DNA from: Limnochorda pilosa
GTDB taxonomy: Bacteria; Bacillota; Limnochordia; Limnochordales; Limnochordaceae
Assembly: GCF_001544015.1 (NCBI RefSeq)
Contig: NZ_AP014924.1
Coordinates: 2,232,001-2,296,000 of the forward strand
Direction of reading: 5' to 3'
DNA length: 64,000 nucleotides
Shown here in pieces: positions 10,012 through 33,445 of this stretch. Below the pieces are notes generated by a model that was not told the DNA's origin, ran no database searches, and worked only from the letters and a program-made list of their open reading frames with translations. A program made the position numbers and the translations under genes. Numbering within the stretch: position 1 is the stretch's first letter; every line of letters begins with the position of its first letter.

Positions 10012-10244
10012 GCGCCGGCCGGGCACCCTGGTTGCTCGCGGCTCCGTCCCTGGATGGCATCCGCCGAACGCGTCTACCGGACAGGCCCCTTGCGGCCTGA
10101 CCGAGCGGGAGCCGTGAAGGTCCATGAACCCCCTCCGGCGAAAAGGGAGTGGGTCGGCGCCCCGACAGGGTCGCCTGGGCTGGGCTCCTCAATGCCGGGC
10201 GGTCCGGGTCGAGGTGAGCATGCTTCGAGAGAGGGGTCGTGGAG

Positions 10245-10889: not shown

Positions 10890-10921
10890 GGGCAAGCCTC
10901 TTCCGCGAAAGGAAGCCTTCC

Positions 10922-12286: not shown

Positions 12287-12297
12287 GGTCTCCCCGC

Positions 12298-12320
12298 CCC
12301 GCCTCGCACGATCAGGCGGG
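12298..12320. terminator. Hairpin between convergent genes
   Basis: CCCGCCT (12298-12304) and AGGCGGG (12314-12320) form a perfect 7-bp stem in the 62-base gap between the araM stop and the converging isomerase stop. No U-run follows on either strand, so it may act as a weak, bidirectional or Rho-assisted terminator. Confidence 0.35.
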
Positions 12321-12348
12321 ATCGGACCGTGGCGCCCGGCCCCACCAC

Positions 12349-13761
<1,413 letters not shown>

Positions 13762-13836
13762 GGCCTAGTCCCCTCCTGATGATAGCACCGGTTCGATCTC
13801 CGCCCCGCACCCGAGCCGCCCCTGCCCTGCGGACAG

Positions 13837-16541: not shown

Positions 16542-16608
16542 CCATCCTCTCCCTCACAGGCGTCTGCTCGAGTTGAAGGTCCCAAGGCCGCACAGGCCGC
16601 GGGCAGCG

Positions 16609-18105: not shown

Positions 18106-18133
18106 CCGTCTCGCCCCCCAATAGACCGTGCAC

Positions 18134-18163
18134 GGCGGGCCGGACCCATCGGCCCGGCCCGCC
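18134..18163. promoter_or_regulatory. Stem-loop between binding-protein and ATPase genes
   Basis: A perfect 10-bp inverted repeat (18134-18143 with 18154-18163, GGCGGGCCGG/CCGGCCCGCC) lies in the 66 bases between the binding-protein stop and the ATPase start. No U-run follows, so it looks like an intra-operon processing or stability element rather than a terminator. Comparable stem-loops follow three other binding-protein genes here. Confidence 0.7.
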
Positions 18164-18171
18164 ACCCCACC

Positions 18172-19152
18172 TTACCGGTAGCCCTGCTCGGCTAGGGAGA
18201 GCACATCGTTGACGTTGCTCGCATCCACAATGCTGGCGCCCGTGTCGATGTTCGAGGGAGCGATACCGTAGCGCAGGTAGAGGTAGAGGCCCACCACCGG
18301 ATAGTAGCCCTGCAGGTAGGGGTTCTGGTCGACGGTGAACTGAGTGTACCCATCCTGGATGTTCTGGAGGGTGCCGGGGACCAGGTCCCAGCCTCCGGAG
18401 ACGACCCGGCCCTGCAGTCCCAGGTTGCGGATGACGGTGCCCTGTGCCGTGGTACCCGTGGCGTCGACGCTGAAGATGCCCTTGGCGTCGGGATTGGCCA
18501 GCAGGAAGCTCTCGAAGGTGGCGACAGCCTGGGTGAGGTCGGCGGTGGTGTGAAGGACCTCATAGGTGATGTCCGTTTGATCCAGGACCTGCCGCACGCC
18601 CGCCAGCCGATCCTGCAGGGACGGATGCCCCAGGTCCTCCAGGCCGATGGCCACCTTGCCGGAGGTGCCGACTCGCTTGACGATCTCCTCCCCGAGACTC
18701 CGACCGGCCGTGATGTCGTTCTGCCCCACGTACGCCAGCCGCGGATTGTCGCCGGAGGTGTCGTCGGTGTTGGTGGCGACCACCGGGATGCCCCGGTCCA
18801 GCGCCTGCTGAACCGGCGCATCGAAGGCGTTCGGGTCCGGAAGGGTGGCGATGATGCCGTCGACGCCCGACTGGATGGCGTTCTCCATGATGCTCACCTG
18901 CTCCTCGACGTTGAACAGGTGGGGCCCGAGGTGCCGTACGGTGATGTTGACGCCTTCAGCCAGTGAGATCGCCCGGGCGGCATCCTGCGCGCCCTTCACC
19001 AGCGGGACCCAGAAGGAGATGGTCGCGCTGTGGGTGATGACCACGAAATCGTACTGATCCGCCTGGGCCGCGACCGGGACGGTGGTGACGCTTCCGACGA
19101 TCGCGATCGCCAACACGGTCCCAAGGATGAGACAGAACGTTCGATTTCGCAC
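18172..19152 (-). CDS. Periplasmic-type sugar-binding protein of the arabinose ABC transporter
   Basis: A 326-residue substrate-binding protein of the ribose/LacI-like fold (peripla_BP_4). The GTG at 19152 has AAAGGAGG eight bases upstream and gives a clean signal peptide: basic RNR, hydrophobic ILGTVLAIAIVGSVTT, then VPVAAQA. The mature part begins YDFVVITHSATISFWVPLVKGAQDAA and contains GVDGIIATLPDPNAFD, GIPVVATNTDD and GIFSVDATGTTAQG, the usual hinge and ligand contacts. It is the first gene of the minus-strand pentose operon and is followed by the stem-loop and the ATPase gene. Arabinose or a related pentose is inferred from the downstream enzymes. Confidence 0.92.
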   Translation of the reverse strand: MRNRTFCLILGTVLAIAIVGSVTTVPVAAQADQYDFVVITHSATISFWVPLVKGAQDAARAISLAEGVNITVRHLGPHLFNVEEQVSIMENAIQSGVDGIIATLPDPNAFDAPVQQALDRGIPVVATNTDDTSGDNPRLAYVGQNDITAGRSLGEEIVKRVGTSGKVAIGLEDLGHPSLQDRLAGVRQVLDQTDITYEVLHTTADLTQAVATFESFLLANPDAKGIFSVDATGTTAQGTVIRNLGLQGRVVSGGWDLVPGTLQNIQDGYTQFTVDQNPYLQGYYPVVGLYLYLRYGIAPSNIDTGASIVDASNVNDVLSLAEQGYR

Positions 19153-19372
19153 CGTGCTAACCTCCTTTGTTCGACTTTGTCGATGATCCGTCCATGCTCC
19201 GTGGCTGCCCGGCACGGTGCCAGCCGACGCCGCGACGGGCTGCGTGACTCCCCCAAGGCACGTTCATGCCCCGATGCCGACAAAGCCTCGCTGCCAACGA
19301 CTGCTCTGCCCTGACGCATCCCCCCTCTTCCAGCCGTCCCGTCTCCAGGCCCCACCGAGGGGGACGGCACCC

Positions 19373-20374
19373 TCAAACGGAGTCGCGTACGATCAGTTGC
19401 GGGGAGAGGACCACCCGACCCGGCGCGCCGCCGGCGTCCGAGTCGGCCAGCCGGTCGATCAGGATGCGGGCCGCCTCCTGGCCGAGCCGGCGTTTGGCGA
19501 CGCCCACGGTGGTCAGAGGTGTCTCGAGCATGCCGGCGATGTCGATGTCGTCGTACCCCACCACGGAGACATCGTCGGGCACGGAGATGTTCGCCTCCTT
19601 CAGCGCCCGCAGCACGCCGATGGCGACGAAGTCGCTGAAGGCGAAGACGGCATCGAAGTCGACGCCGTCCTCGAGCGCCGTCTTGACGGTGGTATAGGCC
19701 GCATCGGACGTGGGGTTGACCTGGATCACCCGCTCGGGAACGAGAGCCACGCCCTGCCTCTCCAGCGCCTCCGAGTACCCCTTGTAGCGTTCCAGGCTGC
19801 TCCAGTTGGAGAACGGCGCGGTCACGAATAGGATGCGGGAGCGGCCCCGCGAGCAGAGATGCTCCACCGCCAGGTACGCACCCGCCGCGTCGTCGTTGAG
19901 CACGGCCGCGAGCCCCAGGCCAGGGCAATCGCGGGCGATGAGAACGACGGGGATGGGGCCTCCACACAGCTCCGAGACGGCCCTTGCGTCGGTTCGCACC
20001 GGCGTCAGCAGAATCCCCGCAACCCGCTGCTCCACCAGGATGTTCAGCGCTTCGGCCTCGAGCCTCTCGTCCTCGCTGGTGTTGCAGAGGACGATGTTGT
20101 ACCCGCGCTGGCGAGCCTCTGCCTCGATCCCCTGGACGACCGCGGCGAAGAAGGGGTTGACGAAGTCCGGCACCACCACGCCCAGGGTGTGGCTCGTCTG
20201 ACGACGCAGGTTCCGCGCCACCACGTTGGGCCGATACCCGAGACGCGTCGCGGTCCGCAGGACGTGCTGCCGGGTCTCCGGGCTCACGTCCGGTTTCCCG
20301 TTCAACGCCCTCGAAACGGTGTTGATGGAGAGCCCCGTTGCCGATGCAATATCCCGCAGCCGCACCATGCCCAC
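19373..20374 (-). CDS. LacI-family transcriptional regulator
   Basis: A 333-residue regulator. The GTG at 20374 has GAGG eight bases upstream. The N-terminal helix-turn-helix RLRDIASATGLSINTVSRALNG (residues 5-26) and hinge NVVARNLRRQ are canonical. The rest is a periplasmic-binding-protein-like effector domain (HTLGVVVPDFVNPFFAAVVQGIE onward), which likely senses the transported sugar. It sits between xylB and the arabinose operon on the same strand, so it is placed to control the operon that starts about 220 bases downstream. Three GATACC/GGTATC half-sites just upstream of its own start suggest autoregulation. No matching site was seen in front of the binding-protein gene. Confidence 0.92.
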   Translation of the reverse strand: MGMVRLRDIASATGLSINTVSRALNGKPDVSPETRQHVLRTATRLGYRPNVVARNLRRQTSHTLGVVVPDFVNPFFAAVVQGIEAEARQRGYNIVLCNTSEDERLEAEALNILVEQRVAGILLTPVRTDARAVSELCGGPIPVVLIARDCPGLGLAAVLNDDAAGAYLAVEHLCSRGRSRILFVTAPFSNWSSLERYKGYSEALERQGVALVPERVIQVNPTSDAAYTTVKTALEDGVDFDAVFAFSDFVAIGVLRALKEANISVPDDVSVVGYDDIDIAGMLETPLTTVGVAKRRLGQEAARILIDRLADSDAGGAPGRVVLSPQLIVRDSV

Positions 20375-20515: not shown

Positions 20516-22048
20516 CTACTCTGACCGCCGCGCCGCCTCCCGAAAGAGCGGCCGCAACGCCTGGTACAGGGAGCGGAACATCGCGTACCCCGCCTCGTAG
20601 CGCAACCGGAGGCCTTCCTGAGGCTCCACGCGGTCCGTGACCCGCACCGTCGCGTCGGCCGCCTCCGCGACGTCGGCCCAGACGCCGCTCCCCACCCCGG
20701 CCAGCAGCGCCGCGCCGTAGCCGGGACCTTCGTCCACGTTGAGGCGGGCGATCGGAACCTGCAGGACATCGGCCAGGATCTGGCGCCAGAGAGGACTCCT
20801 CGCCCCTCCCCCCAGCGCCCGCAACGCCTCGATCTCCATCCCCAGGGAGCGGAGGATCTCCAGACTGTCCTTCAGCCCGTAGGCTACTCCTTCCAGAACC
20901 GCCCGGATCAGATCTTCCCGACGGTGCGCGCTGCTGAGCCCGAACCAGACGCCCCGGGCATGAGGGTCCGCGTGGGGCGTCCGCTCCCCGTTCAGGTACG
21001 GCAAGAACCAGAGCCCCCGTGCCCCGGCGGGGCTCCGCTCCGCCTCCCGGGCAAGCAGATCGTAGGCGTCGGCCCCCGTCAGCTCCGCCGCCATCCGCTC
21101 CAGGTGCCCCAGCTCCTCCCGAACCCATCGGAGGCTCAGGCCCGCGGCCAGCATGACCCCCATGAGGTACCAGGCCCCAGGGACCGCGTGGTTGAAGGTG
21201 TGCACCCTCCCACCCTCGTCCCGCCGCGGCTCCGGAGCGTGGCAGAGGACCACACCCGACGTACCGATGCTGACCAGCGCCCTCCCCGCACGGACCACCC
21301 CTGCGCCAACAGCCCCGCAGGCGTTGTCCGCACCGCCGGCCACGACCGGTACGCCCGGCGGGAGCCCCGTCTCCGCCGCGGCAGACTCGGTGAGCCTCCC
21401 TGCCACGTCCGCTGAGCCCAACACCGGGGGCAGTTGATCGTGCCTCAGCCCCACCGACTCCACCAGGTCCGTGGACCAGTCCATGCGCTCGACATCGAAG
21501 AGCCCCGTTCCGGCAGCATCCGAGACCTCGGTGGACTTCTCGCCCGTCAACCGGTAACGAACGTAGTCCTTCGGAAGGAGCAGCACGTCCACCCGCCCAA
21601 AGTTCTCGGGCTCGTACCGGCGCAGCCACAGGACCTTGGGGGAGGTGAAACCCTCCATGGCGGGGCTCCCGGCGAGACGGATCATCCGCTCCCGCCCCAC
21701 GGTCCGGTTCAGCTCGCGCACCTCTTCGGCCGTCCGGGTGTCACACCAGAGCAGGGGAGGCCGCACCACGTCCCCGGACCGATCCAGGAAGACCGAACCG
21801 TGCATCTGCCCGGAGAGGCCGATGCCAGCCACATCCGCCGGTGCCAGGCCCGACTGCCGGATCACCTCGCGCACGCCTTCCACCGCGGCCCGATACCACG
21901 CCGCCGGGTCCTGCTCGGCCCACCCCGGGCGCGGCGTCTCCAGCGGGTACTCCCGGTAGGCCCGGGCGACCACCCGTCCTTCATCATCGACCAGCAGTGT
22001 CTTCGTTCCGCTGGTCCCCACGTCAATGCCGATCAGCCATCGACCCAT
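20516..22048 (-). CDS. xylB: Xylulokinase
   Basis: A 510-residue FGGY kinase that phosphorylates D-xylulose. The ATG at 22048 is preceded by GGGAGGAAGG. Visible: LIGIDVGTSGTKTLLVD (phosphate loop), GWAEQDPAAWY, GIGLSGQMHGSVFLD and LLWCDTRTAEEV, all typical of XylB; then LPKDYVRYRLTGE, VSIGTSGVV, FLPYLNGERTPHADP and the C-terminal GGGARSPLWRQILADVL. It is the last gene of the minus-strand block with GH5, the MalEFG-type transporter and the xylose-isomerase-like protein. Its product joins the AraD product in the pentose phosphate pathway. Confidence 0.93.
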   Translation of the reverse strand: MGRWLIGIDVGTSGTKTLLVDDEGRVVARAYREYPLETPRPGWAEQDPAAWYRAAVEGVREVIRQSGLAPADVAGIGLSGQMHGSVFLDRSGDVVRPPLLWCDTRTAEEVRELNRTVGRERMIRLAGSPAMEGFTSPKVLWLRRYEPENFGRVDVLLLPKDYVRYRLTGEKSTEVSDAAGTGLFDVERMDWSTDLVESVGLRHDQLPPVLGSADVAGRLTESAAAETGLPPGVPVVAGGADNACGAVGAGVVRAGRALVSIGTSGVVLCHAPEPRRDEGGRVHTFNHAVPGAWYLMGVMLAAGLSLRWVREELGHLERMAAELTGADAYDLLAREAERSPAGARGLWFLPYLNGERTPHADPHARGVWFGLSSAHRREDLIRAVLEGVAYGLKDSLEILRSLGMEIEALRALGGGARSPLWRQILADVLQVPIARLNVDEGPGYGAALLAGVGSGVWADVAEAADATVRVTDRVEPQEGLRLRYEAGYAMFRSLYQALRPLFREAARRSE

Positions 22049-22113: not shown

Positions 22114-23511
22114 TCAACTCTTCCAGCTTGCGGACAGAACCTCGATCAGACCCTCGCGCCTCCTGCCGTTCTTCAACTCGAAGGCCTCCCGCTGCATGAC
22201 CGCTATCTCTTCCGGGCTCATGTCGGCGAAGAGCATGGCGTACAGAGGCACGACGGCATTGGCCAAGTCTCCATAGACGACTCGTTCCACCAGGTATTCC
22301 TTCAAGCCGGCCAGATCCAGGCTGAAATCCCAGAGCCGTGACCCGATCTGGTCCACCAGGTGCCGGATCGCCGCCCCGGGCCACCCCAAGTCGCGCGTGG
22401 TCCACTTGTCGAGCCCCAACTCCTGCTTGAGCCGCAGCATCGGACGCAACCGGCGCAGGTACTCGGAATCGGCGCCCGGCACCACCAATCCCTGCGGGCC
22501 CACGTCCTTGTACGTCCAAAGGGTCCAGTGGAAACCGAACTCATCAAAGAGCTCGATCTGATCCTTCAGCGCCGCAAGCCGTGCTTGATCCGACGGAGTT
22601 GGCTCGAGGACGTCTCCGTCGTACAGGGCACCAAACTCTCCGACCCAGTTGGGCAGGTCGCGTTCCAACATCCATCGGTTCGTCTCCTCCAGGTCTCTCC
22701 GAAGCCAGGCGCGGTCACCGTACACCCCTTCTACGGGGCCAGGGTACCGCCTGGCCTTGTGGGTGACGACCGTGTAGTTGTGCGAACTCCAGACCACGTT
22801 CTCGTCCAATGCCTCATCGAGCCCATCGAACCGGCGGGACCAGTCGTTGCCTTCCAGGAAGAGGATGTGCCTCCGATCAACCCGGCGAATGGCCCCCGCC
22901 AGCTCCTTGTACAACCTGTTCAGCACGGACACCGACGGGGCATTGGGCTCGTTGAGGAGGTCGTAGCCCGCCACGGCGGCCGTATCCCTGTAATGGTCCG
23001 CAATGTGAGCCCACAGGTCGCGGGCGCGCGCTTGGAAGTCGCGATGCTGCCAGAAGAGCGACACGCCCGTGGGATTGTCGGCGTGCCAGCCTTCATTCTG
23101 CCAGCCAGGCGCCGCGTGCAGGTCCAGAATGACGTACATCCCGTGCGTTTCGGCAGTCCGCACGATCCTGTCCAGATGAACGAAGCCCTCGTCCTTGTAG
23201 ACGCCCGGTCGATCGTCGTCCTCAAAGAGTCGGTAGTTGAACGGTACCCTGACGACCGTCGCTCCGAGTCCCCTCAAGAACCGGATGTCTTCCTCCGAGA
23301 AGAAGGCCTCGACGAAGCTCGTCATCCATGTCCGATACCGCTCTTCGCCCAACTCCTCGAGCAGTGCGGACCGCAGCCTGGACTCGCAGCCTGGATAGCC
23401 CGTGATGAAGTTCTCCATGTTGAGCCATCCCCCGACCGCCACGCCCCGCAGCCGCACCTCTCGCCCGTCGGTGTCGACGACCTTCTTTCCTTCAGCCCGA
23501 AGGAACTTCAT
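22114..23511 (-). CDS. Glycoside hydrolase family 5-like enzyme, intracellular
   Basis: A 465-residue (beta/alpha)8-barrel glycosidase of GH5 type. The ATG has GGAGGGGAG upstream. The acid/base glutamate is E188 in LLNEPN; the nucleophile is E292 in WVGEFGALYD; VRVPFNYRLF, YVILDLHAAPGWQN and SSHNY are other typical barrel strands. There is no signal peptide, so it acts in the cytoplasm, probably on an oligosaccharide or glycoside brought in by the MalEFG-type transporter immediately upstream in the operon. The last 110 or so residues after the barrel are helical and of unknown role. The exact substrate (beta-glucoside, mannoside or xyloside) cannot be told from sequence. Confidence 0.88.
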   Translation of the reverse strand: MKFLRAEGKKVVDTDGREVRLRGVAVGGWLNMENFITGYPGCESRLRSALLEELGEERYRTWMTSFVEAFFSEEDIRFLRGLGATVVRVPFNYRLFEDDDRPGVYKDEGFVHLDRIVRTAETHGMYVILDLHAAPGWQNEGWHADNPTGVSLFWQHRDFQARARDLWAHIADHYRDTAAVAGYDLLNEPNAPSVSVLNRLYKELAGAIRRVDRRHILFLEGNDWSRRFDGLDEALDENVVWSSHNYTVVTHKARRYPGPVEGVYGDRAWLRRDLEETNRWMLERDLPNWVGEFGALYDGDVLEPTPSDQARLAALKDQIELFDEFGFHWTLWTYKDVGPQGLVVPGADSEYLRRLRPMLRLKQELGLDKWTTRDLGWPGAAIRHLVDQIGSRLWDFSLDLAGLKEYLVERVVYGDLANAVVPLYAMLFADMSPEEIAVMQREAFELKNGRRREGLIEVLSASWKS

Positions 23512-23552: not shown

Positions 23553-24449
23553 CTAAGATCGCAGCGCGCCGGCCGTGAGCCCGCTCACGACGCGTTCTTG
23601 AAACACCACGAAGAAGAGGATGGTCGGCAGGCTTCCAAGAAGCACCGTGGCCATGACCGCCGGTGTATCGATGCCGAACTGGCCGAAGAGCTGGCGCAAC
23701 CCCAGTGGCAAGGTGAACGCCTCGGGTGACTGAAGCAGGACGGAAGCGAAGATGAACTCGTTCCACGCGCCGATGAGGTTGTAGATGGCCACCGTAGCCA
23801 GGGCCGGACCTGCGAGCGGCAGCGTGATCCGATAGAAGGTCTGGAAGTAGGTGCACCCGTCGATCCGGGAAGCATCCTCCAGTTCCTTCGGGATCTGCGA
23901 GAAGAACTCGGTGAGAATGAAAACGGATATGGGCAGGCCGAACCCCACGTAAGGCCCGATCAACGCCACGAGCGTGTCGTATGTCCCCATCCGCTGCGTC
24001 ATGATGTAGATGGGAATGAGGGTGATGTGAATGGGGATCATCATGCCGGCCAGAATCCACAGGAACAAGGGCCGGCGGCCGGGGAACGTCATGCGTGCAA
24101 AGGCATAGGCTGCCAGACTGCTAAGGGCGACGATCAAGAGGACCGAAACAACCGAAACGAACACGCTGTTCGTCAGGTACCTGGGGAAGTCGCTCGCCCA
24201 CACGGATCCGAAGTTGGACAGATTCAGCCGAGAAGGGAGTTCCCAGGGGCTCACCAGAAACTCACGCATGGTCTTGAAGGCCGTGAGTCCCATGAAGAAG
24301 ATGGGGAACGCCGCAACAGCCAGCCAGACGAGGGCGAGAAGATAGGCCCCGGCTTCGTTGAGGCGCCGTTTCCACACGGGCCGACGGCGCGTGCGTACGG
24401 ATGGGCGCTGGATGCTCAGGGCCGCACGGGCGTCCCCCGAAGTCGACAT
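23553..24449 (-). CDS. Carbohydrate ABC transporter permease, MalG type
   Basis: A 298-residue inner-membrane permease with six predicted segments. The ATG has GGGAGG eight bases upstream and lies three bases after the preceding permease stop. The cytoplasmic EAA loop reads LEDASRIDGCTYFQTFYRITLPL (about residues 190-213), which contacts the ATPase. No ATP-binding protein is encoded in this operon, so a shared MsmK/MalK-like ATPase elsewhere in the genome must energise it. It works with the MalF-type permease and the binding protein upstream. Confidence 0.92.
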   Translation of the reverse strand: MSTSGDARAALSIQRPSVRTRRRPVWKRRLNEAGAYLLALVWLAVAAFPIFFMGLTAFKTMREFLVSPWELPSRLNLSNFGSVWASDFPRYLTNSVFVSVVSVLLIVALSSLAAYAFARMTFPGRRPLFLWILAGMMIPIHITLIPIYIMTQRMGTYDTLVALIGPYVGFGLPISVFILTEFFSQIPKELEDASRIDGCTYFQTFYRITLPLAGPALATVAIYNLIGAWNEFIFASVLLQSPEAFTLPLGLRQLFGQFGIDTPAVMATVLLGSLPTILFFVVFQERVVSGLTAGALRS

Positions 24450-24452
24450 TCG

Positions 24453-25388
24453 CTATGCCTCCCGCCGAAACTGAGTGACGTAGAGCAGCAACGCACTTAC
24501 AACGAACGCGATCAGAAAGGAAGCGACGGCAACGCTGCTTCCGTAACCCATCTGGAACTGGTTGAAGGCCGTCTTGAACATATGGGTGGCCATGAGCTCA
24601 CTCGCGTGGTTCGGGCCACCCCCGGTCATGATGTAGATGAGGTCGAAGTACTTGAGCGACCCAACCAGCGAGAGCACGACGGCCGTCCGAATGGTTCCCA
24701 CCAGCAAGGGGAGTGTAACGTACCAGAAAGCCTTGCTTCCCGTGGCACCGTCGATGGCCGCCGCCTCGTGCAGCTCTTGCGGAATCCCAACCAGAGCTGC
24801 TTGGAACAAGATCATGTAGAAGGGAATGAACTGCCAGGCGATGGTCGCGATGACGGCCCACAGGGCGGTACGCTCGTCACCAAGCCAGCCCCGCATCCAG
24901 CCGTGCAGGCCAAGTCGAGCCAGGAGGTCGTTGACGACGCCCATGCTCGGGTCATAGATGAAGATCCACAGGATGCCTATGGCCACAGTAGGCATCATGT
25001 GTGGCACGAAGTAGGCTGTTCGAAAGAAACGCATGCCACGGAGGCCGCGCGTGAGCAGGAGGGCCAGGCCCAGGGCCACCGGGAGCTGCGTAACGAGGGA
25101 TCCAGCCACCAGGCGCAGATTGTTGCCGACCGCGCGCCAGAAGACGGAGTCCTGCAGAAGCCGCCCAAAGTTGCCCGATCCCACGAACGTCCCGGTCCTG
25201 CTGACGCCGGACCAGTCGAAGAGGCTGTAGTACACGGATAGCAGGATCGGTCCAGCCACGAAGGTCCCGTAGACCACCATGGCGGGAAGCAGGAAGGCAT
25301 AGGCCGTCCACATCCGCTTGGTGGCCGCACCCCTCGGAACGGGAACTCCGCGCACCATCGACCGCCCCCCCACGCTCTCAACCCGCAT
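24453..25388 (-). CDS. Carbohydrate ABC transporter permease, MalF type
   Basis: A 311-residue permease with six hydrophobic segments beginning about residue 27 (TAYAFLLPAMVVYGTFVAGP). The EAA loop is LHEAAAIDGATGSKAFWYVTL (about residues 205-225). ATG at 25388 is used; an internal ATG ten codons later is a possible alternative because no strong ribosome site precedes the first. A long perfect hairpin ends 14 bases upstream of this start, between this gene and the binding-protein gene. It forms one transporter with the MalG-type neighbour. Confidence 0.9.
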   Translation of the reverse strand: MRVESVGGRSMVRGVPVPRGAATKRMWTAYAFLLPAMVVYGTFVAGPILLSVYYSLFDWSGVSRTGTFVGSGNFGRLLQDSVFWRAVGNNLRLVAGSLVTQLPVALGLALLLTRGLRGMRFFRTAYFVPHMMPTVAIGILWIFIYDPSMGVVNDLLARLGLHGWMRGWLGDERTALWAVIATIAWQFIPFYMILFQAALVGIPQELHEAAAIDGATGSKAFWYVTLPLLVGTIRTAVVLSLVGSLKYFDLIYIMTGGGPNHASELMATHMFKTAFNQFQMGYGSSVAVASFLIAFVVSALLLYVTQFRREA

Positions 25389-25447: not shown

Positions 25448-26725
25448 TCATCGTCCGAGCAGCTCTTGCGCCTTCCTTTCCATCGCTTGGGCTGCCTCCA
25501 GGGGCGTCATCGACAGCCCGAAGATGGCTTGCGTCGTATCCTTGTGCAGCTCGCCGAGCTCCGGCGGCAGGAACTGGTCATAGTAGAGCTGGAGGTGCGC
25601 TGCCTCCTCGAGCAGCTTCATGAGTTCGGCGGTCATCGGATCCTCCACGGGGACATTGACCACGGCTGGGAGACGACCGGTGGCCCTCGTCCAATCCACA
25701 GCCGTCTCGTACGCCGTGAGGTAGCGAGCGAGAGCAACGGCCTCCTCCGGGTAGTCGGTGGTGCTGGCTACCGAAAACAAGTCCCCGCCAGCCACTACTT
25801 CCGTCGGGTCGCCCTTGCCGTCTTCAAGCCGAGGGAAGGGGAACCACCCGAGACGGCGAGCGAACTCGGGATCTTCCTCTCGAGCCTGGCCGGGGAACCA
25901 GGAGCCCATGAGGTGCATCGCGGCCCGTCCGGAGTACATGAGCGCGCTCGCCTGGCCGACGTCGTGGTCCAACCCGTTGAAGCCCACCGGGAACGCACCC
26001 GCCCGAACGAGCTCCTGGATCCGCTCACCGGCTTCAACGAACGCCGGGTGGTCGAAGCCGTAGCCGGGTTCGCGGTTGTAGGCCTTCTCGAAGACCTCGG
26101 CTCCACCGACCCGATGGGCCAGATAGATCAGGTAGAATGCGCCGGGCCATTTCGTCTTGTTGGCGATGGATATGGGAATGATGCCCTCATTCCGCATCGC
26201 GTCCACCAGAGTCAGCAGTTCGGACCACGTCTCGGGCGTCTCCCATCCGTGCTCTTCGAAGATCGCCTGGTTGTAGAAGAAGACGACCACCGCGAGCGTC
26301 AGCGGAACCGCGTAGTAGTCCTCCCCGTACTTCGCGAGGCCCAGAGACGCCGGTACGAACGTCTCGCCCCATCGGTCCCGTTCGAGAGCACCCGTAAGCG
26401 GCAGCACCATGCCCGCGTCCACATACTCCTCGAGCCAGCCGCCTCCCCACGAGTGGAAGACGTCAGGAGGCGAACCGGCCGCCATGGCAACCTGCAGCTT
26501 CGTCTTATAGGTGTCGTTGTCCGTGACCGTCACTTTGACGTCGACGTCGGGATAGACGGCCCGGAAGCGCTCCACCGCCTCGTCCAGGACAGCCTGCTCG
26601 TTCTCGTTGGTGAAGATGTGCCAGAGTTCGATGGTCTTCTGTGCCTGCGCGGAGCCTGCCGCAAGGCCCAGGACCAGCACGAGAAACGCCACCGTAAGAC
26701 CAGCCGTTACCCTCGAGATTCTCAC
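25448..26725 (-). CDS. Extracellular sugar-binding protein, MalE-like (SBP_bac_1)
   Basis: A 425-residue binding protein. The GTG at 26725 has GGGAGG about ten bases upstream and gives a signal peptide (RISR, then VTAGLTVAFLVLVLGLAAG, then SAQAQ). The mature start KTIELWHIFTNENEQAVLDEAVERF is typical of family 1 solute-binding proteins, as are PPDVFHSWGGGWLEEYV and the later MHLMGSWFPGQ. There is no lipobox cysteine, so it is probably secreted or wall-associated rather than a lipoprotein. It delivers an oligosaccharide to the two permeases that follow; the GH5 enzyme downstream suggests a beta-linked glycoside. Confidence 0.92.
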   Translation of the reverse strand: MRISRVTAGLTVAFLVLVLGLAAGSAQAQKTIELWHIFTNENEQAVLDEAVERFRAVYPDVDVKVTVTDNDTYKTKLQVAMAAGSPPDVFHSWGGGWLEEYVDAGMVLPLTGALERDRWGETFVPASLGLAKYGEDYYAVPLTLAVVVFFYNQAIFEEHGWETPETWSELLTLVDAMRNEGIIPISIANKTKWPGAFYLIYLAHRVGGAEVFEKAYNREPGYGFDHPAFVEAGERIQELVRAGAFPVGFNGLDHDVGQASALMYSGRAAMHLMGSWFPGQAREEDPEFARRLGWFPFPRLEDGKGDPTEVVAGGDLFSVASTTDYPEEAVALARYLTAYETAVDWTRATGRLPAVVNVPVEDPMTAELMKLLEEAAHLQLYYDQFLPPELGELHKDTTQAIFGLSMTPLEAAQAMERKAQELLGR

Positions 26726-26889
26726 TCTTTCTAACCTCCCTTCCCATAGTTCCGACTCCGGATGCACCACCAGCCAGTCCTGCGCCCTCCGCTCTCGCTA
26801 GACAACCTTCGTGGCACCAGCCCCTTTCGACGACCCACTCCTCGGGATACGTCGGTGAAGCCTGGGCCCTCTGGCCCTCGGGTTACCCT

Positions 26890-28038
26890 CTAGCCCATGT
26901 CGCCTGGCCGGGGCAGAGCCGCCAGCCTCTCCGGGTGCAGCGCCCGCGTCCGAATCAGGTACCGCTCGATCCACCCGCGAGCCCTGTCGGGGTGCTCCGC
27001 GGCCCATACGATGCTTTCGTGATCGAGGTCGTTGATGCGGTCTAGAGCGGTGCGGATCGCTTCGATGGACACACGAACGGCCTCTTCCGGCGCCATCCGC
27101 TCCGGGTTAAGGTCGAGCCCGAAGTGCTCCCCGTAGCCGTGCGTCTTGAGGGCGTACAGGCCTGCCTCCAGTTGCTCCGGCGCGACCATACCCACGGGCA
27201 GATCCAGGTCGTACCCGCCGAGCGGCTGCGCATTCCAGTGGGTGTGCGCCAGACGCCCCGCTTCCAAGACCATGCTGAAGCTGTACGCCAGATCTTCGTA
27301 CGCCATCAGCATGTGGCCCACCTCGGGGTTAAGGCAGACCAGCGCGTGACCCTCGTCCAGGAGTCGTCGGTTCTCAGCGTTCTGAAGCCTCGACTCGACC
27401 TCGCGGGCAAGCAGGAGCCCTTCCGCAGTGGTCCCGAACAGGGTCCGCCCGCGCGGCTCGTACGGCTTGGGCTCGAAGGCGACGCGCACGCCTGGAACCG
27501 TCTCCAACGCCTCCACGAGGCCGTCGACGAAGCGACGACGAGCATCGGCAAAGTTGGCACCGAACGGTTGCTCGTAGCCGTCAATGCCCGGCCAGAGAAC
27601 GGCGAAGTCCGTCCCCAGCTCCTTGTTGAGCTGCAGCGTGCGGATGGTCCGGTCGAGGGCCTTCTTGCGCGCGGGTGCAAGCGGCGACGACAGGGCTCCG
27701 AACTCGAAGTCGGCGTCCCAGAAGAGCATAGGGATCACCGTCAGGACGCGGATGCCGCTCTGACGGGCGAACTGCCTCCAGAGATCCAGGTTCGCTTCGT
27801 TGATCTCGTTGGGGTAGTGCGCTTCGACCCCCACCACGCCTAGCGGTGCCAGACGCGCGATCCGCTCGAGCCGCTCCTCGATCGAGGCAACCGGCTGATA
27901 CCGATCGTGGAAGCGGTTGCCGGCGGGCGAGAAGTACCAGACCCCCACGGAGAACCGTGGCTGAAGCTGGTAATCTCGCAGGAAGGCCACGAGTTCGTCG
28001 CCTCGCCGTACCACCGACTGGGCCCGAAGATCTCTCAT
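26890..28038 (-). CDS. Xylose-isomerase-like TIM-barrel protein with altered metal site
   Basis: A 382-residue AP-endonuclease-2/xylose-isomerase fold protein. Motifs of class I xylose isomerases are visible: EPKPYEPRG (E189, K191), NPEVGH (E239, H242), YDLDL (D277, D279) and LDLNP (D309). But the segment equal to HIDLN reads HTHWN, so the metal-1 aspartate is replaced by H267. In the segment equal to HDDD (here HYPN, residues 74-77) the catalytic aspartate becomes N77. It is thus a relative of XylA that may isomerise or epimerise another sugar. ATG at 28038 is chosen (AGGAGG 13 bases upstream); a GTG at 28065 is possible. It heads the GH5/transporter/xylB block, opposite the ROK regulator. 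Confidence 0.75.
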   Translation of the reverse strand: MRDLRAQSVVRRGDELVAFLRDYQLQPRFSVGVWYFSPAGNRFHDRYQPVASIEERLERIARLAPLGVVGVEAHYPNEINEANLDLWRQFARQSGIRVLTVIPMLFWDADFEFGALSSPLAPARKKALDRTIRTLQLNKELGTDFAVLWPGIDGYEQPFGANFADARRRFVDGLVEALETVPGVRVAFEPKPYEPRGRTLFGTTAEGLLLAREVESRLQNAENRRLLDEGHALVCLNPEVGHMLMAYEDLAYSFSMVLEAGRLAHTHWNAQPLGGYDLDLPVGMVAPEQLEAGLYALKTHGYGEHFGLDLNPERMAPEEAVRVSIEAIRTALDRINDLDHESIVWAAEHPDRARGWIERYLIRTRALHPERLAALPRPGDMG

Positions 28039-28160: not shown

Positions 28161-28270
28161 AGCGATTGCACACGGCTTTGGGGAGCTTGCTCCCCCTGCG
28201 CGCAGGGCAGGTACCTGCTCTTCGCTTCGGTCGAGTAAGTTGACGCGCTAGACGTTTTGGAGGTGGCAGG

Positions 28271-29572
28271 ATGGGCCCTTACGCATCCACCGCGGATCAG
28301 TTCCTCGTCAAGGCTTTCAATCAAGGCATCGTCCTCCACCTCCTGCGCGTGCAGGGCCCTCTCTCCCGCGCCGACATCGCCAAGGTAACCGGCCTGAACA
28401 AGACCACCGTATCGGTGCTGGTGGAGGAGCTGATTCACCGGCACCTGGTCCAAGAAGTAGGCATGGGAGCGTCCAGCGGCGGCCGGCGCCCGATGCTCCT
28501 CACCCTCAACGCGCGCGCGGGCTTCGTGGTCGGCGCCGACCTCGGAGTCGATTACTTCCTGGTGGTGGTCTTGGACCTTCAGGCACAGCCCATCTGGAAG
28601 CGAAGGGTCCACCGGGTTCCGGGCACCGACCCCTCCACGGACGTACGCCAACTGGCCGACCTGATCGCGGACGGCGTGGCCGCCGTCTCCCCCACCCCAC
28701 TGGGGCTGCTGGGCATCGGTGTCGGCGTTCACGGCCCCGTCGAGCATCCTGGGGGGAGGTTGCTCTTCGCCCCCAATCTGGGGTGGACCGACGTGCCCGT
28801 AGGGGAGCTGCTGCGAGAGCGGTTTCAGGTGCCCATCGTGGTCGACAACGAGGCGAACGCCGGAGCCCTCTCCGAGCTCTGGTACGCCGCGCAGGACGCG
28901 GACACACTGTTCTACTTCAGCGTCGGCATGGGCCTCGGCACCGGAATCGTCATCAACGGAGAGATCTACCGGGGTGCGGCCGGCACCGCAGGCGAGTTCG
29001 GCCATACCACCATCGACCCATCGGGGCCGCCGTGCACGTGCGGCAACCGCGGCTGTCTCGAGACCTTCGTCTCCGAGCGGGCGCTCATGAGGTACCTGCA
29101 GGGCTCGGGCGCCGAGAAGGTTGCCACGACCCAAGAGGTGTTCCAGGCGGCGGACGCGGGCGAGGCGCGGGCCATCTCTGCGCTGGCCCAGCTCGGTGGG
29201 TACCTTGGCATCGGCGTGGCCAACGCCATCAACACGTTCAATCCCCAACTGGTCGTCATCGGTGGCCCCATCGGTAGCGGGGGTCACCACGTGCTCAATT
29301 CCGTCCGACGGGTGGTCGAACGACGCGCGCTCCCCTTCCCCCTGAGCAGGGCTCGCATCGTCGTCTCCGCCCTCGGTGAAGAAGCATGCGCCATCGGTGC
29401 AGGCATCATGATCTTGCAGGAGTTCTTCCGGATCCCCCAGGTGAAGACCGCAGGAGAACGAACGCCGGAAGCGGTTCTCGGTGGGCTCAAGGGTGGTCGC
29501 GGCCAGCAGGACCCCATGGCCTGGCCTGGGCCGGATGGCGCCCACTACTCCACGGTGAAGTCGTCCTCCTGA
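28271..29572 (+). CDS. ROK-family transcriptional regulator (XylR/NagC type)
   Basis: A 433-residue repressor with an N-terminal winged helix (NQGIVLHLLRVQGPLSRADIAKVTGLNKTTVSVLVEEL in two helices, about residues 17-50) and a ROK sugar-kinase-like domain. The ROK part shows GADLGVDYFLVVVLDL, the GELLRERFQVPIVVDNEANAG segment, and the zinc motif CTCGNRGCLE (about residues 256-265). ATG at 28271 has TTGGAGG seven bases upstream. It is transcribed away from the xylose-isomerase-like/GH5/transporter/xylB block and probably represses it until a sugar such as xylose or glucose binds. The C-terminal 45 residues after the ROK domain are longer than usual and low in complexity. Confidence 0.92.
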   Translation: MGPYASTADQFLVKAFNQGIVLHLLRVQGPLSRADIAKVTGLNKTTVSVLVEELIHRHLVQEVGMGASSGGRRPMLLTLNARAGFVVGADLGVDYFLVVVLDLQAQPIWKRRVHRVPGTDPSTDVRQLADLIADGVAAVSPTPLGLLGIGVGVHGPVEHPGGRLLFAPNLGWTDVPVGELLRERFQVPIVVDNEANAGALSELWYAAQDADTLFYFSVGMGLGTGIVINGEIYRGAAGTAGEFGHTTIDPSGPPCTCGNRGCLETFVSERALMRYLQGSGAEKVATTQEVFQAADAGEARAISALAQLGGYLGIGVANAINTFNPQLVVIGGPIGSGGHHVLNSVRRVVERRALPFPLSRARIVVSALGEEACAIGAGIMILQEFFRIPQVKTAGERTPEAVLGGLKGGRGQQDPMAWPGPDGAHYSTVKSSS

Positions 29573-29611: not shown

Positions 29612-30400
29612 CTACTCAAACCTCGCGCTCGCGATCTCCTGGGCGCTCGCCCCCACCCTGTAGTGCTCGTCGGCCTCGAAGACGGGCAGGACCAGCTTCT
29701 CCGCCAGGCGGTTGGCCAGAGCCAGAGAGGCAGGGGTGCCGGCGTCGGTCCACCAGCCCTGGAGGATGTCGTAGTGGAGCATCCCCAGGCGGATGTAGGC
29801 GTTGTTCACGTCGGTGATCTCGAGCTCGCCCCGGCGGGAGGGGCGCAGGGTCTTGACGATGTCGAAGACCCGGGCGTCGTACATGTAGACGCCGGTGACG
29901 GAGTAGGCGCTCTTGGGCCGGCGGGGTTTCTCCTCGATGCCCGCGATCCGCTCGCCTTCGATCTCAGCCACGCCGTAGCGCTCGGGGTCCGGAACCTCCT
30001 TGAGCAGGATCCGGGCGCCCTCCTCCTGGGCAGCGAAGCGCTCCACGTAGGGGGCGATGCTTTCCTCGAAGATGTTGTCGCCCAGGATCACCACGCAGCG
30101 ATCCTCTCCCACGAAGCCCTCGGCCAGCCCCAGGGCCTGGGCGATGCCGCCCGCCTCGTCCTGCACCCGGTAGGTGAACTCCATCCCCAGCGCCCGGCCC
30201 GAGCCCAGGAGGCCCACCACGTCCCCCATGTGCTCGGTGCCCGTCACCACCAGCACGTCGTGGACGCCCGCCTCGGCAAGCTTGGCGATGGGATGGTAGA
30301 TCATGGGGTAGCGCCCCACGGGGAGCAGGTGCTTGTTGGTCACCTTGGTGAGCGGGAAGAGCCGGGAGCCGGTACCTCCGGCCAGGATGACGCCCTTCAC
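29612..30400 (-). CDS. rmlA: Glucose-1-phosphate thymidylyltransferase
   Basis: A 262-residue nucleotidyltransferase that makes dTDP-glucose from dTTP and glucose 1-phosphate. The GTG at 30400 has AGGAGG eight bases upstream. The pyrophosphorylase signature VKGVILAGGTGSRLFPLT opens the protein; VILGDNIFEE (about residues 107-116) supplies the metal-binding aspartate; GIEEKPRRPKS and the late WWTDAGTP follow. It is the short form of RmlA, as in StrD-like and archaeal enzymes. It is the last gene of the rmlB-rmlD-rmlC-rmlA set, 14 bases after rmlC. Confidence 0.93.
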   Translation of the reverse strand: MKGVILAGGTGSRLFPLTKVTNKHLLPVGRYPMIYHPIAKLAEAGVHDVLVVTGTEHMGDVVGLLGSGRALGMEFTYRVQDEAGGIAQALGLAEGFVGEDRCVVILGDNIFEESIAPYVERFAAQEEGARILLKEVPDPERYGVAEIEGERIAGIEEKPRRPKSAYSVTGVYMYDARVFDIVKTLRPSRRGELEITDVNNAYIRLGMLHYDILQGWWTDAGTPASLALANRLAEKLVLPVFEADEHYRVGASAQEIASARFE

Positions 30401-30414
30401 GTGCGTGGCCTCCT

Positions 30415-30879
30415 CTACCGCATCTTGGTCGTCCAGTCGAAGCCGATGGACGGGTCGTCGTAGGGGATGCGCTTCTCGTCGGGGTCGTTCGGGTTGTACG
30501 ACTCGGTGGTGAAGTAGATGATGAAGGCCGGCTTCTCCCCCAGGGTGCGGTACCCGTGGGCGACCCCCACCGGGATCAGGAGCAGGATGGGGTTCTCCTC
30601 GCCCATGTAGAAGACGTTGGTCTCCCCCCGGGTGGGCGAGCCCTCCCGCAGGTCGTGGAGCACCACCTGGGCGTTCCCCACGGGGAAGAACCAGAGGTCG
30701 TCCTGCCGCTCGTGGTAGTGGAAGGCCTTGATGACGCCGGGGTACGTCTTGGACATGGAGGCCTGGCCGAAGCGGCGCAAGAGCCCGTCGTCGTCCCGGA
30801 GGATCTCCTGAAAGAAACCCCGGTCGTCGGGGTGGCGGACGAGCTGCTTGACCCGGACGCCGTCGATCACGCGGACCAT
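30415..30879 (-). CDS. rmlC: dTDP-4-dehydrorhamnose 3,5-epimerase-like cupin
   Basis: A 154-residue cupin, slightly shorter than classical RmlC (about 180). Catalytic-type elements are visible: DDRGFFQEILR (residues 18-28), KAFHYHERQDDLWFFPVG (the base histidine region) and NPILLLIPVGVAHGYRTLG. It converts dTDP-4-keto-6-deoxyglucose to the L-lyxo epimer in dTDP-L-rhamnose synthesis. ATG at 30879 lies only two bases after GGAGGGG; a GTG nine bases further in (30870) has better spacing and may be the true start. Gene order with rmlB, rmlD and rmlA supports the call. Confidence 0.88.
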   Translation of the reverse strand: MVRVIDGVRVKQLVRHPDDRGFFQEILRDDDGLLRRFGQASMSKTYPGVIKAFHYHERQDDLWFFPVGNAQVVLHDLREGSPTRGETNVFYMGEENPILLLIPVGVAHGYRTLGEKPAFIIYFTTESYNPNDPDEKRIPYDDPSIGFDWTTKMR

Positions 30880-31273
30880 CCCCTCCGATGCGAAGTGAAT
30901 CGGTGCGAGGCCAGCCGAGCAGAGCGACCCCGGTGAAGCCCAAGGGCCTGACGATCCGTTCTTCAGGGGAAGCGGTCCGGTTCCTGCCGGCGAAGCGCCA
31001 CCCTTGACGACGGTTGGCCGATCGACGTCACAGGCCCGCCCGCGCCGCGGCGATGATGGCCTGGGCCTCCTCGTCGCTCCGCGCATACGGATCTCTCAGT
31101 TCGGGTCCACGAGCCCCACCCGCCAGCTCTCCCCACTCGAAGTCGATCTTCTGCCGGTGGACCGCTCCTACGTACGCACGTTCGTAAGCCCCGGGCAGCC
31201 TACCACGAGGAACCTCCGCGCCGCAACAGGTCAAACCGTCAGCAGGAGCGAGACAGATCGCGCCAGGCGCTCC
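30880..31273. other. Gap between rmlD and rmlC, part of a duplicated segment
   Basis: A 394-base gap inside the rml gene set. No gene can be supported. A 68-codon open frame (31028-31234, minus) exists, but its first part lies in sequence shared with 57563-57640, and the rest resembles nothing I know. The segment 31160-31273 continues the rmlD-end duplication described below. Confidence 0.5.
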
Positions 31274-31345
31274 TCACGGGAAGAGTTCCGGCTCCCTTGC
31301 CCGTAGCTCCTCCAGGAACCGGCCCAGCGCCTCCTGCCAAGGCCG
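31160..31345. repeat. Copy 1 of duplicated rmlD-end segment (other copy 57563-57745)
   Basis: By eye, the last 70 or so bases of rmlD plus about 110 bases downstream align with 57563-57745 at roughly 70 percent identity with small indels. Shared blocks include TACCACGAGGAA, GCGCAACA, GCGCCAG and GGCTCCCT, in the same order and orientation. Confidence 0.75.
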
Positions 31346-32329
31346 CATGCGAATCCCGGATGCCTCCAGCCGCTGGAGGCTCAGCACCGAGTAGGCGGGC
31401 CTGGGCGCCGGCCGGCCGAGCTCGGCGCTGGTGAGGGGTTCCACGGGCACGTCCCATCCTGCCTGGCGGAGGATCTCCCGGGCGAAGGCGTACCAGGAGC
31501 ACTGGCCGGCGTTGGCCACGTGGTAGGTGCCGGAGGAAGGCGAGAAGGTGGGAGCAGGCCCACCGCGCCCGGAGACCTCCCACCGGTGCTCCGGAGGCTG
31601 CCCGCCGGGCTCTGGAGCCTCCTTGCCCAGCCCCACCAGCTGGAGCACCGCCTGCGCCAGGTCGCCTGCGTGGGTCGGCGAGCCGACCTGGTCGTCCACC
31701 ACCCGCAGGGGACCGCTGGCTTCGCCGTGACGGCGTGCAGCCGCGGCCCGGAGGATGCTCTTGGGGAAGTTCCGCCCGAAGACGCTGTAGACCCACGAGG
31801 TGCGAGCGATGGCAAAGGGCCCGCCGGCCTGGCGGACGGCCTCCTCCCCTTCGTACTTGCTCTGGCCGTAGGCACTGAGGGGGTTCGGAGGATCGTCGGG
31901 TTCGTAGGGGGTGCGCTTCGTCCCGTCGAAGACGAAGTCAGTGCTCAGGTAAACGAGGAAGGTGCCCCGCTCGGCGCACAGGCGGGCAAGGCGTGCGGTC
32001 GCGTCGGCGTTCACCCGCCGGGCCCGGTCCGGGTCCCGCTCGCAGCCGTCCACGTCGGTCCAGGCCGCGGCGTGGATGACGATGCCCGCCTCGGAGAGGA
32101 AGCGGCGCACCTGGCCCGCGTCGGTGACGTCCAGCTCACTGTGGCCTGGAGCGTCGCAGGGGATGGAGCGCTGGCGGAGGAGGCGCTGGAGCTCCTGGCC
32201 CACCTGGCCCTCGCCGCCGGTCACCAGCACCCTGGGCGGGTGAGGGTGGGGGCTCGGGTGATGGTGACGGATGGGGTGACGGCGGGGACTCGGGTGATCG
32301 TGGCGGCTCCGGCGCCCCCCGGTGGTCAC
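31274..32329 (-). CDS. rmlD: dTDP-4-dehydrorhamnose reductase
   Basis: A 351-residue short-chain-dehydrogenase-type reductase giving dTDP-L-rhamnose. The Rossmann motif VLVTGGEGQVGQEL starts only at about residue 33. The chosen GTG (32329) overlaps the rmlB stop as GTGA, and no ribosome site precedes the internal GTG at VLVTGG. The first 32 residues are a histidine/proline-rich stretch encoded by an imperfect repeat, unusual for the family. The catalytic YxxxK is YGQSK (about residues 127-131), with STDFVFDG and ARTSWVYS as expected. A Gly/Pro-rich insert (around residues 225-250) also enlarges the protein. The 3' end is duplicated near 57.7 kb. Confidence 0.9.
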   Translation of the reverse strand: MTTGGRRSRHDHPSPRRHPIRHHHPSPHPHPPRVLVTGGEGQVGQELQRLLRQRSIPCDAPGHSELDVTDAGQVRRFLSEAGIVIHAAAWTDVDGCERDPDRARRVNADATARLARLCAERGTFLVYLSTDFVFDGTKRTPYEPDDPPNPLSAYGQSKYEGEEAVRQAGGPFAIARTSWVYSVFGRNFPKSILRAAAARRHGEASGPLRVVDDQVGSPTHAGDLAQAVLQLVGLGKEAPEPGGQPPEHRWEVSGRGGPAPTFSPSSGTYHVANAGQCSWYAFAREILRQAGWDVPVEPLTSAELGRPAPRPAYSVLSLQRLEASGIRMRPWQEALGRFLEELRAREPELFP

Positions 32330-33390
32330 GACTCCTTCCCCCGAAGCGCGTCGAGCCAGTCCTCCCGCCGGTCGTACATGCGAGTATAGTACTCCCGGTA
32401 CGCCCCGGAGCGGACCCGTTCGAGCCAGTCTTGGTGGGACAGATACCAGTTCACCGTGGACTCCAGGCCCTCCTCGAAGGTCCAGCGGGGCCGCCAGCCC
32501 AGCTCCCGCTCGGACTTGGACGAGTCCATCGCGTAGCGCCGGTCGTGGCCGGGGCGGTCCGGAACGAAGCGGATCAGGTTCTCCGGCCGATCCAGGATCC
32601 GCAGGAGCGTGCGCACCACCTCCAGGTTGGGCCGCTCCGCGTGGCCCCCGAAGTTGTAGACCTCCCCGGGCCGCCCCCGGCGGAGGGTCAGGTCGATCCC
32701 CCGGCAGTGGTCCTCCACGTGGATCCAGTCCCGCACGTTCTGCCCGTCCCCGTAGACCGGAAGGGGCTTCCCCTCCAGGGCGTTGGCGATCATGAGGGGG
32801 ATGAGCTTCTCGGGGAACTGGTAGGGGCCGTAGTTGTTCGAGCAGCGGGTGATGAGGGCGGGGAAGCCGTGGGTCTTCCAGGCGGCCCGCACCATCAGGT
32901 CCGCCGCCGCCTTGCTGGCCGCATAGGGGCTGTTCGGGGCTATGGGGCTCTCCTCGGTGAAGGCACCCATTCGCGTGAGGGAGCCGTAGACCTCGTCGGT
33001 GGAGACCTGGACGAACCGCTCCACCCCGTGGCGCCGGGCGGCTTCCAGGAGCACCTGGGTGCCGATGACGTTGGTCCGGAGGAAGGCCGACGCGTCCTCG
33101 ATGCTCCGGTCCACGTGGGACTCGGCGGCGAAGTGGACCACCGCATCCACCGGGCTCCCCCAGGCCTCCTCCGCCGCGGCGAAGGCCCGCTCCACGCCTT
33201 CGGGATCGGCCACGTCGCTCTGGACGAAGCGGTACCGCTCGTTCCCCTCCACTTCGGTGAGGTTCTCCAGGTTCCCCGCGTAGGTGAGAAGGTCCAGGTT
33301 GACCAGCTTGTCCTCGGGGTGCTCCCGCAGGAGGTGGTGGACGAAGTTGCTGCCGATGAAGCCGGCTCCGCCGGTGATGAGGATGATCAT
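32326..33390 (-). CDS. rmlB: dTDP-glucose 4,6-dehydratase
   Basis: A 354-residue extended SDR enzyme that converts dTDP-glucose to dTDP-4-keto-6-deoxyglucose with bound NAD. ATG at 33390 (GGAGG 12 bases upstream) gives MIILITGGAGFIGSNFVHHLL at once. Other signs are VHFAAESHVDRSIEDA, QVSTDEVYGSL (catalytic T-D-E), SPYAASKAAAD (YxxxK), TRCSNNYGPYQFPEKLIPL and RRYAMDSSKSERELGW. It is the first gene of the minus-strand rml set and its stop overlaps the rmlD start. The product supports a rhamnose-containing surface polymer. Confidence 0.96.
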   Translation of the reverse strand: MIILITGGAGFIGSNFVHHLLREHPEDKLVNLDLLTYAGNLENLTEVEGNERYRFVQSDVADPEGVERAFAAAEEAWGSPVDAVVHFAAESHVDRSIEDASAFLRTNVIGTQVLLEAARRHGVERFVQVSTDEVYGSLTRMGAFTEESPIAPNSPYAASKAAADLMVRAAWKTHGFPALITRCSNNYGPYQFPEKLIPLMIANALEGKPLPVYGDGQNVRDWIHVEDHCRGIDLTLRRGRPGEVYNFGGHAERPNLEVVRTLLRILDRPENLIRFVPDRPGHDRRYAMDSSKSERELGWRPRWTFEEGLESTVNWYLSHQDWLERVRSGAYREYYTRMYDRREDWLDALRGKES

Positions 33391-33445
33391 GGGTTCGCTT
33401 CGCCTCCAGGTCCACGCTGCCACGTCAGCCGCTTCGGGCGCGCGG

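Follow-up and report, generated by a model that had tools for sequence, protein, structure and literature searches.

The window analysed here is a stretch of 64,000 nucleotides from the Limnochorda pilosa genome (NZ_AP014924.1, positions 2,232,001 to 2,296,000). An ORF on its minus strand, at positions 26890-28038 including the stop codon (26893-28038 without it), starts with the ATG at 28038 and encodes a protein of 382 aa, which is predicted from the ORF, family searches, alignment and tree to be a D-xylose isomerase of a His-type family; an upstream GTG start would give 391 aa. From the isomerase gene onward, the same strand carries genes for an ABC transporter sugar-binding protein (25448-26770; SBP_bac_1 by Pfam, best NCBIfam model NgcE with 111.5 bits, under the 399.65 cut-off), two ABC transporter permeases recognized by eye (24453-25388 and 23553-24449), a GH5 glycoside hydrolase (22114-23511; Pfam Cellulase, 111.7 bits), the xylulokinase XylB (20516-22039; TIGR01312, 574.8 bits for a cut-off of 380.25), which lies 4.4 kb downstream of the isomerase gene, and a LacI-family regulator (19373-20374; Pfam) that may serve the arabinose cluster beyond. 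Both permeases have a relative in the same place in L043, one of the 90 loci compared below. The GH5 enzyme is a probable beta-xylosidase, as its best match among solved structures is 9ku5_A, a "putative beta-xylosidase GE32" (E 1.6e-103, near full length; the next entry is at 2.8e-23). A literature search found no paper on GE32, and none of the other 89 loci encodes a relative of this GH5 enzyme at E up to 1e-5. The initial annotation had placed the isomerase gene with xylB, GH5 and a transporter, and all of these were found in the window.

Divergent from the isomerase gene, a ROK-family regulator (28271-29572, plus strand; Pfam ROK, 228.1 bits) is a candidate XylR-like repressor. The same ROK arrangement occurs in L043, and Thermus pVV8 has the order ROK-xylA-xylB. 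A 14-bp palindrome, CCCTGCGCGCAGGG (28194-28207), lies between the isomerase and ROK genes and is a putative operator. A promoter search found no sigma-70-like site, and a terminator search gave matches no more frequent than in shuffled sequence. Beyond the ROK gene, positions 29612-33423 hold what by eye is a set resembling dTDP-rhamnose synthesis genes (nucleotidyltransferase, epimerase, dehydratase and reductase).

The motifs HTHWN and HYPN, which had been reported in place of the XylA motifs, are indeed present in this ORF, at residues 265-269 and 74-77, respectively. The protein matched PF01261, the TIM-barrel domain of xylose isomerase-like proteins (57.7 bits for a cut-off of 31.1), its sole Pfam match at E up to 0.001, and did not match the FucI-family domain PF02952 at that threshold. 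It scored below the cut-off of the class I XylA model TIGR02631 (80.9 bits for 447), of the RhaI_grampos model TIGR02635 (45.7 for 531.35) and of L_rham_iso_rhiz (23.7 for 646.75) in NCBIfam, as well as of the class II XylA model TIGR02630 in a search of its own genome (16.6 for 533.25). The top sequence match among solved structures was 3ktc (E 2.1e-22), followed by class I XylA entries from 3e-20. Within the own genome, the sole other protein matched at E up to 10 was L002 (E 2.4e-10), a RhaI with 64% identity to an annotated Deinococcus RhaI. An AlphaFold model computed with 48 sequences had a pLDDT of 88.7 and a pTM of 0.89, with pLDDT under 50 at residues 36-38 and 274-279; the latter loop holds two metal-2 ligands. 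The model superimposed on 3ktc with a Z score of 34.0 (320 residues), on class I XylA with a Z of about 33 (about 320 residues, rmsd 2.5) and on the RhaI of P. stutzeri with a Z of 30.8 (318 residues, rmsd 2.7). The predicted fold thus fails to discriminate XylA from RhaI.

To place the active-site residues, we aligned the window family with annotated class I XylA (Thermus, Streptomyces and Deinococcus), class II XylA called by TIGR02630, RhaI (Deinococcus, Rhizobium and own genome) and distant relatives, 18 of the 20 distant loci fetched. The metal ligands, His54 and Asp57 of XylA are numbered as in the S. rubiginosus enzyme, following PMC11194214, which also names Lys182 of the S. olivochromogenes enzyme. 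In the alignment, it is His267 itself that falls on the metal-1 ligand position, Asp245; the histidine reported at this position is thus confirmed by comparison with both XylA classes, RhaI and the relatives. The other metal ligands E189, E239, H242, D277, D279 and D309 correspond to XylA E181, E217, H220, D255, D257 and D287, and H74 and N77 correspond to H54 and D57. All of these ligands, together with H74 and K191, are shared with XylA, and the metal-1 Asp245 is not. Further pairs are W34 with W16, F43 with F26, F106 with F94, W149 with W137, K191 with K183, N269 with N247 and N311 with K289. We then compared 89 family sequences, namely, the window protein, the best 80 of 258 relatives from a scan of a genome-contig collection and 8 of 9 long genome-search loci, a split copy from genome G013 being dropped. 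H267 was found in 89/89 of them, so the residue is neither chance nor a sequencing slip, and H74, E78, E189, K191, E239, H242, H265, D277, D279 and D309 were likewise invariant. N77, at the position of Asp57, and N311, where XylA rows have Lys or His, were each found in 85/89 sequences. Judging from the residues, the replacement of the ring-opening acid Asp57 by N77 and that of Lys289 by N311 could alter specificity.

The residues at positions 239 and 267 distinguished the groups in the alignment. XylA of classes I and II has Glu at 239 and Asp at 267, the three RhaI rows and 18/18 aligned distant relatives have Asp and His, and the window family has Glu and His. Its metal site is therefore a hybrid, combining the bridging Glu of XylA with the His of RhaI. 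In the structure of the L-rhamnose isomerase LrL-RhI (PMC10908623), Mn1 is held by Glu228, Asp261, His288 and Asp328 and Mn2 by His264, Asp296 and Asp298. The likeness to L-rhamnose isomerase that had been noted for the metal-position histidine thus stands, both in the RhaI rows and in His288 of LrL-RhI. However, the RhaI metal-1 set of Glu, Asp, His and Asp is not matched in full: the window His fits, and the second ligand is Glu239 instead of Asp. Three proteins on the XylA side of the tree (L133, L134 and L135, labeled "int") also combine Glu and His, with SVHLN or GIHLN at the Asp245 position, yet carry His and Asp where XylA has His54 and Asp57; they score 193 to 207 bits against TIGR02631. 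At position 267, Asp is found in both 3ktc and a Pantoea protein (L155). The initial annotation spoke of an Asp to His change. That a His occupies the Asp site of XylA is correct, but the data do not show a direction of change, which is in doubt because His also occurs in the RhaI rows, the distant relatives and the three-row group on the XylA side.

A tree of 63 rows and 380 columns was built with IQ-TREE under LG+C20+F+G4, the two trait columns being named for exclusion. The 28 sampled family members fell on one branch (support, 100/99). Another branch (100/99) separated XylA I, XylA II and the "int" rows from the remaining rows, and a third (100/97) lay between the window family and a set made up of RhaI, the Pantoea row and the distant relatives. 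Branches with 100/99 support lie between the window family and class I XylA, and the two did not group. The 239/267 trait requires three changes on the tree. The program warned of long branches meeting at several of these joins, and the tree is not rooted; it therefore fixes neither how the three blocks are ordered nor which way Asp and His changed. The window family nonetheless forms a supported group distinct from both XylA and the kin of RhaI; the phylogenetic comparison proposed earlier against XylA and RhaI puts the family outside XylA and outside the RhaI block.

These data bear on two alternative identities. An otherwise normal class I XylA carrying a substitution of one metal ligand would explain the residue pattern, the near-class I length and the Z score of about 33; we rejected it as hardly credible, given a score of 80.9 bits against a cut-off of 447, the separate 28-row group and the presence of His in 89/89 sequences. 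An enzyme similar to L-rhamnose isomerase or to ketose 3-epimerases, acting on rare sugars such as D-allulose, as the initial annotation had led one to consider, would share His267 with RhaI, and both the 45.7 bits against TIGR02635 and the fold match to the P. stutzeri enzyme go in its direction. Yet the family lies across a 100/97 branch from the RhaI block and has a bridging Glu where RhaI has Asp, the genome has its own RhaI (L002), and the kinase of the cluster is a XylB that scores only about 70 bits against rhamnulokinase models. We consider this second identity quite improbable, and identity with RhaI itself was rejected on score, bridging residue and gene context.

In a sample of the window phylum, 33 of 398 genomes had a match to the isomerase at E up to 1e-20, 10 of them to the close family (about 43 to 80% identity, lowest in G160) and 23 to distant relatives (about 25 to 35%). 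The contig-collection scan yielded 258 relatives, and the best 80, with 57 to 80% identity, were fetched. Going by their record titles, these 80, mostly metagenome assembled, come from Chloroflexota, Planctomycetota, Rhodothermota, Acidobacteriota, Armatimonadota, Ignavibacteriota, Calditrichota, WOR-3, KSB1 and others. Two family copies, sharing 80% (L043) and 75% (L044) identity with the window protein, occur in different neighborhoods of a single metagenome-assembled genome, ZC3RG07. In G013 (L040, 8793-9934), the family gene is split between two frames; the adjoining xylB is whole, and the LacI gene beyond is also in two pieces. Among the open-licence PMC papers listed in literature searches, no title or abstract opening mentioned the His-type family. 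The "alternative xylose isomerase" of P. syringae, a 278-aa gene beside rhizopine genes, was set apart from the family by length and context only.

We then compared the neighborhoods of 90 loci, comprising the window, the best 80 of the 258 contig-collection relatives and 9 loci from phylum-sample genomes; at least 1 kb of downstream sequence was present in 80 of the 90, and some contigs are short (33 bp in L044). A xylB-like gene belonging to one BLAST cluster was found in 45/90 loci; it shared the strand of the isomerase gene and lay no more than 3 kb away in 41/90, and it was on that strand with its start at most 250 bp downstream in 21/90; a same-strand xylB within 3 kb was absent from 49/90 loci, Rhodothermales among them. 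In L032, whose isomerase is 80% identical to the window protein, the adjoining GH3 enzyme has a beta-xylosidase, 7zb3, as its best solved match (E 2.7e-260). Other hydrolases near family members are GH3 in L084 and L111 as well as in L032, GH31 in L034 and L038, and galactosidase-like domains in L067; the GH31 gene of L038 follows xylB and is nearest to alpha-glucosidases and YicI. As these hydrolases are mixed, not all of them indicate xylose. A 460-aa gene of L043 considered as a GH5 candidate matched methyltransferase models instead.

Ten transporter proteins near family genes were scored against NCBIfam cut-offs. In L033 (genome G098), XylF was over its cut-off (539.3 for 504; TIGR02634, 480 for 389.55), and XylG was over one (799.1 for 699) but under that of TIGR02633 (680.6 for 723.65); the best model for the permease was GguB, below its cut-off. 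XylF of L045 was barely over TIGR02634 (392.7 for 389.55), and no xylB was found within the 21 kb of this locus. XylF (297.8) and the ATPase (670.9) of L057 were below the xylose cut-offs, and the ATPases of L047, L035 and L058 were over no cut-off among the 25 models listed, that of L058 being nearest to ribose. The suggestion that the activity may differ from that of xylose isomerase is not favored by these contexts, in which the family is tied to xylulokinase and some loci have D-xylose ABC transporters or beta-xylosidase-like hydrolases. Nor is it favored by the window genome, which has a separate RhaI but no canonical XylA over cut-off. The pathway context suggests instead the same activity as xylose isomerase.

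We next examined whether the family stands in for XylA, using 56 family-bearing genomes, 46 behind the 80 contig-collection loci (completeness unstated) and 10 from the phylum sample. Class II XylA was over its cut-off in 0/56 and class I XylA in 1/56, G411 (L057), which holds both the family gene and class I XylA; no family member in these searches passed the cut-off of either XylA model. In the phylum sample, with at most 4 class II, 4 class I and 3 XylB first-look candidates scored per genome, class II XylA was over cut-off in 38/396 genomes, class I in 2/396 and XylB in 98/396, and all 40 genomes with canonical XylA also had XylB. XylB was present in 9/10 family-bearing genomes of this sample, the exception being G160 (P = 2e-5, kinship ignored). 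Among genomes with xylB, canonical XylA was found in 0/9 with the family versus 40/89 without it (P = 0.0098, kinship ignored), a difference that was not significant when the xylB condition was dropped (0/10 versus 40/386; P = 0.61). For these Fisher tests, N was taken as 396 and kinship was left uncorrected. Another 49 genomes had xylB with neither canonical XylA nor the window family, and 12 of the 49 have a distant relative.

A known alternative xylose isomerase, XylA-II of C. acetobutylicum, belongs to the FucI family (PMC2873477). A similar FucI-family protein might isomerize xylose in L. pilosa and leave the window protein an accessory role, and two genes of the window genome do pass the Pfam cut-off for the FucI family, one of them within the window at 12352-13761. 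That gene, however, lies with a ribulokinase (13840-15480; TIGR01234, 720.5 bits over 583.25), an L-ribulose-5-phosphate 4-epimerase (10239-10886; 320.8 bits over 251) and a glycerol-1-phosphate dehydrogenase-like gene (10922-12283), at the place expected for AraA (best NCBIfam model 81 bits, cut-off 700). We rejected it as a XylA-II because it is part of this likely L-arabinose cluster, which spans 10239-19215 and includes a ribose-type ABC transporter. Moreover, 5 of the 10 family-bearing genomes of the phylum sample (G098, G013, G012, G153 and G160) had no PF02952 match at E up to 1e-5; FucI-family genes are present in the other five (G000, G353, G204, G237 and G371). A FucI-type xylose isomerase with the window protein as accessory is, in our judgment, very improbable.

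Of these genomes, G012 (96% complete) and G153 (85%) have XylB, with neither a canonical XylA over cut-off nor a FucI-family gene, and no second isomerase relative was found in them at E up to 1e-20. By elimination, the family gene is the sole isomerase candidate of a known kind found there. The same pattern is seen in G098 (99% complete), where XylF, XylG and XylB adjoin the family gene, except that this genome has a distant relative elsewhere (31% identity, 493650-494543). In genus g137, G204 has the window family but lacks a canonical XylA that passes a cut-off, and its six sampled congeners have class II XylA. We rejected an in-place displacement, as the family gene of G204 lies elsewhere than the xylA of its congeners, with no shared neighbor (3 of 6 fetched, L160 to L162). 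Because of this different place, and because the two FucI-family genes of G204 have apparent equivalents in the congeners by length and score, genus g137 is weak evidence.

A second His-type subfamily (motif GH[QHN]H[AG]NSGW; L163 to L167), with about 30% identity to the window protein, is encoded immediately upstream of xylB in L164 to L167; in L163, the two genes are separated by a canonical class II xylA. These five loci were selected since their coordinates placed the subfamily gene near xylB, and elsewhere the distance is about 7 kb (G049 and G180) or the genes are on separate contigs (G385). The co-occurrence in L163 of a canonical xylA with a His-type gene near xylB indicates that such His-type enzymes need not duplicate XylA. 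It favors a reading in which the window protein isomerizes another pentose feeding XylB, for example, D-lyxose to D-xylulose, or is a broad aldose isomerase whose substrates include D-xylose, and an L-rhamnose isomerase with the same metal-1 His takes several aldoses (PMC10908623). We regard this reading as unlikely in view of the XylF and XylG that pass their cut-offs in L033, the XylF that does so in L045, the beta-xylosidase-like enzymes in the window and L032, and the lack in G012 and G153 of the known kinds of xylose isomerase.

Together, these results make it likely that the window protein belongs to a D-xylose isomerase lineage distinct from XylA classes I and II. Residues, phylogeny, gene context and the lack of other known isomerases in some genomes were computed, and from them we infer substrate, metals and chemistry. 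By analogy with XylA and RhaI, His74 would help to open the sugar ring, and Lys191 with two divalent metals would carry out a 1,2-hydride shift. Metal 1 would be held by E189, E239, H267 and D309 and metal 2 by E239, H242, D277 and D279. Since His267 gives metal 1 a ligand shell resembling the one in L-rhamnose isomerase, Mn or Co may be preferred over Mg; LrL-RhI works best with Co, with 37.7% for Mn and values near zero for other metals (PMC10908623). On balance, we lean toward a broader proposal, that the family is a third TIM-barrel class of D-xylose isomerase (the fourth xylose isomerase if the FucI-type XylA-II is counted), with a hybrid Glu/His metal-1 site, standing in for XylA across many mostly uncultured phyla, and that the second His-type subfamily beside xylB would represent another, separate origin of a XylB-linked isomerase, this time on the RhaI side. 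As the two XylA models miss the His-type genes, xylose use in many uncultured bacteria would read as incomplete. Few enzymes are used in industry as widely as xylose isomerase. A Glu/His site between those of XylA and RhaI would allow direct testing of how the metal-1 ligand affects metal choice and sugar specificity.

Compared with class I XylA (TIGR02631; Thermus and Streptomyces), the window protein shares the fold, the length, a C-terminal part that aligns up to residue 369, every metal ligand except one, and a context with xylB and sugar transporters. It differs in having His for Asp245 and Asn for both Asp57 and Lys289, in an identity of 22 to 25% over structural alignments, in a score far below the cut-off and in its separate tree group. 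With RhaI (TIGR02635 and TIGR02629), it has in common the metal-1 His, the fold and a two-metal site, whereas it has Glu in place of the bridging Asp, lies outside the RhaI group and occurs in a xylulokinase context. Like XylA-II of C. acetobutylicum (PMC2873477), it would by hypothesis replace XylA beside xylB, but XylA-II is of the PF02952 family and the window protein matches only PF01261. Finally, the putative sugar isomerase 3ktc from Erwinia carotovora atroseptica, whose record titles give no function, is the top sequence match and has the top fold score, with its Z of 34.0 tied with XylA, and it has Asp where the window protein has His.
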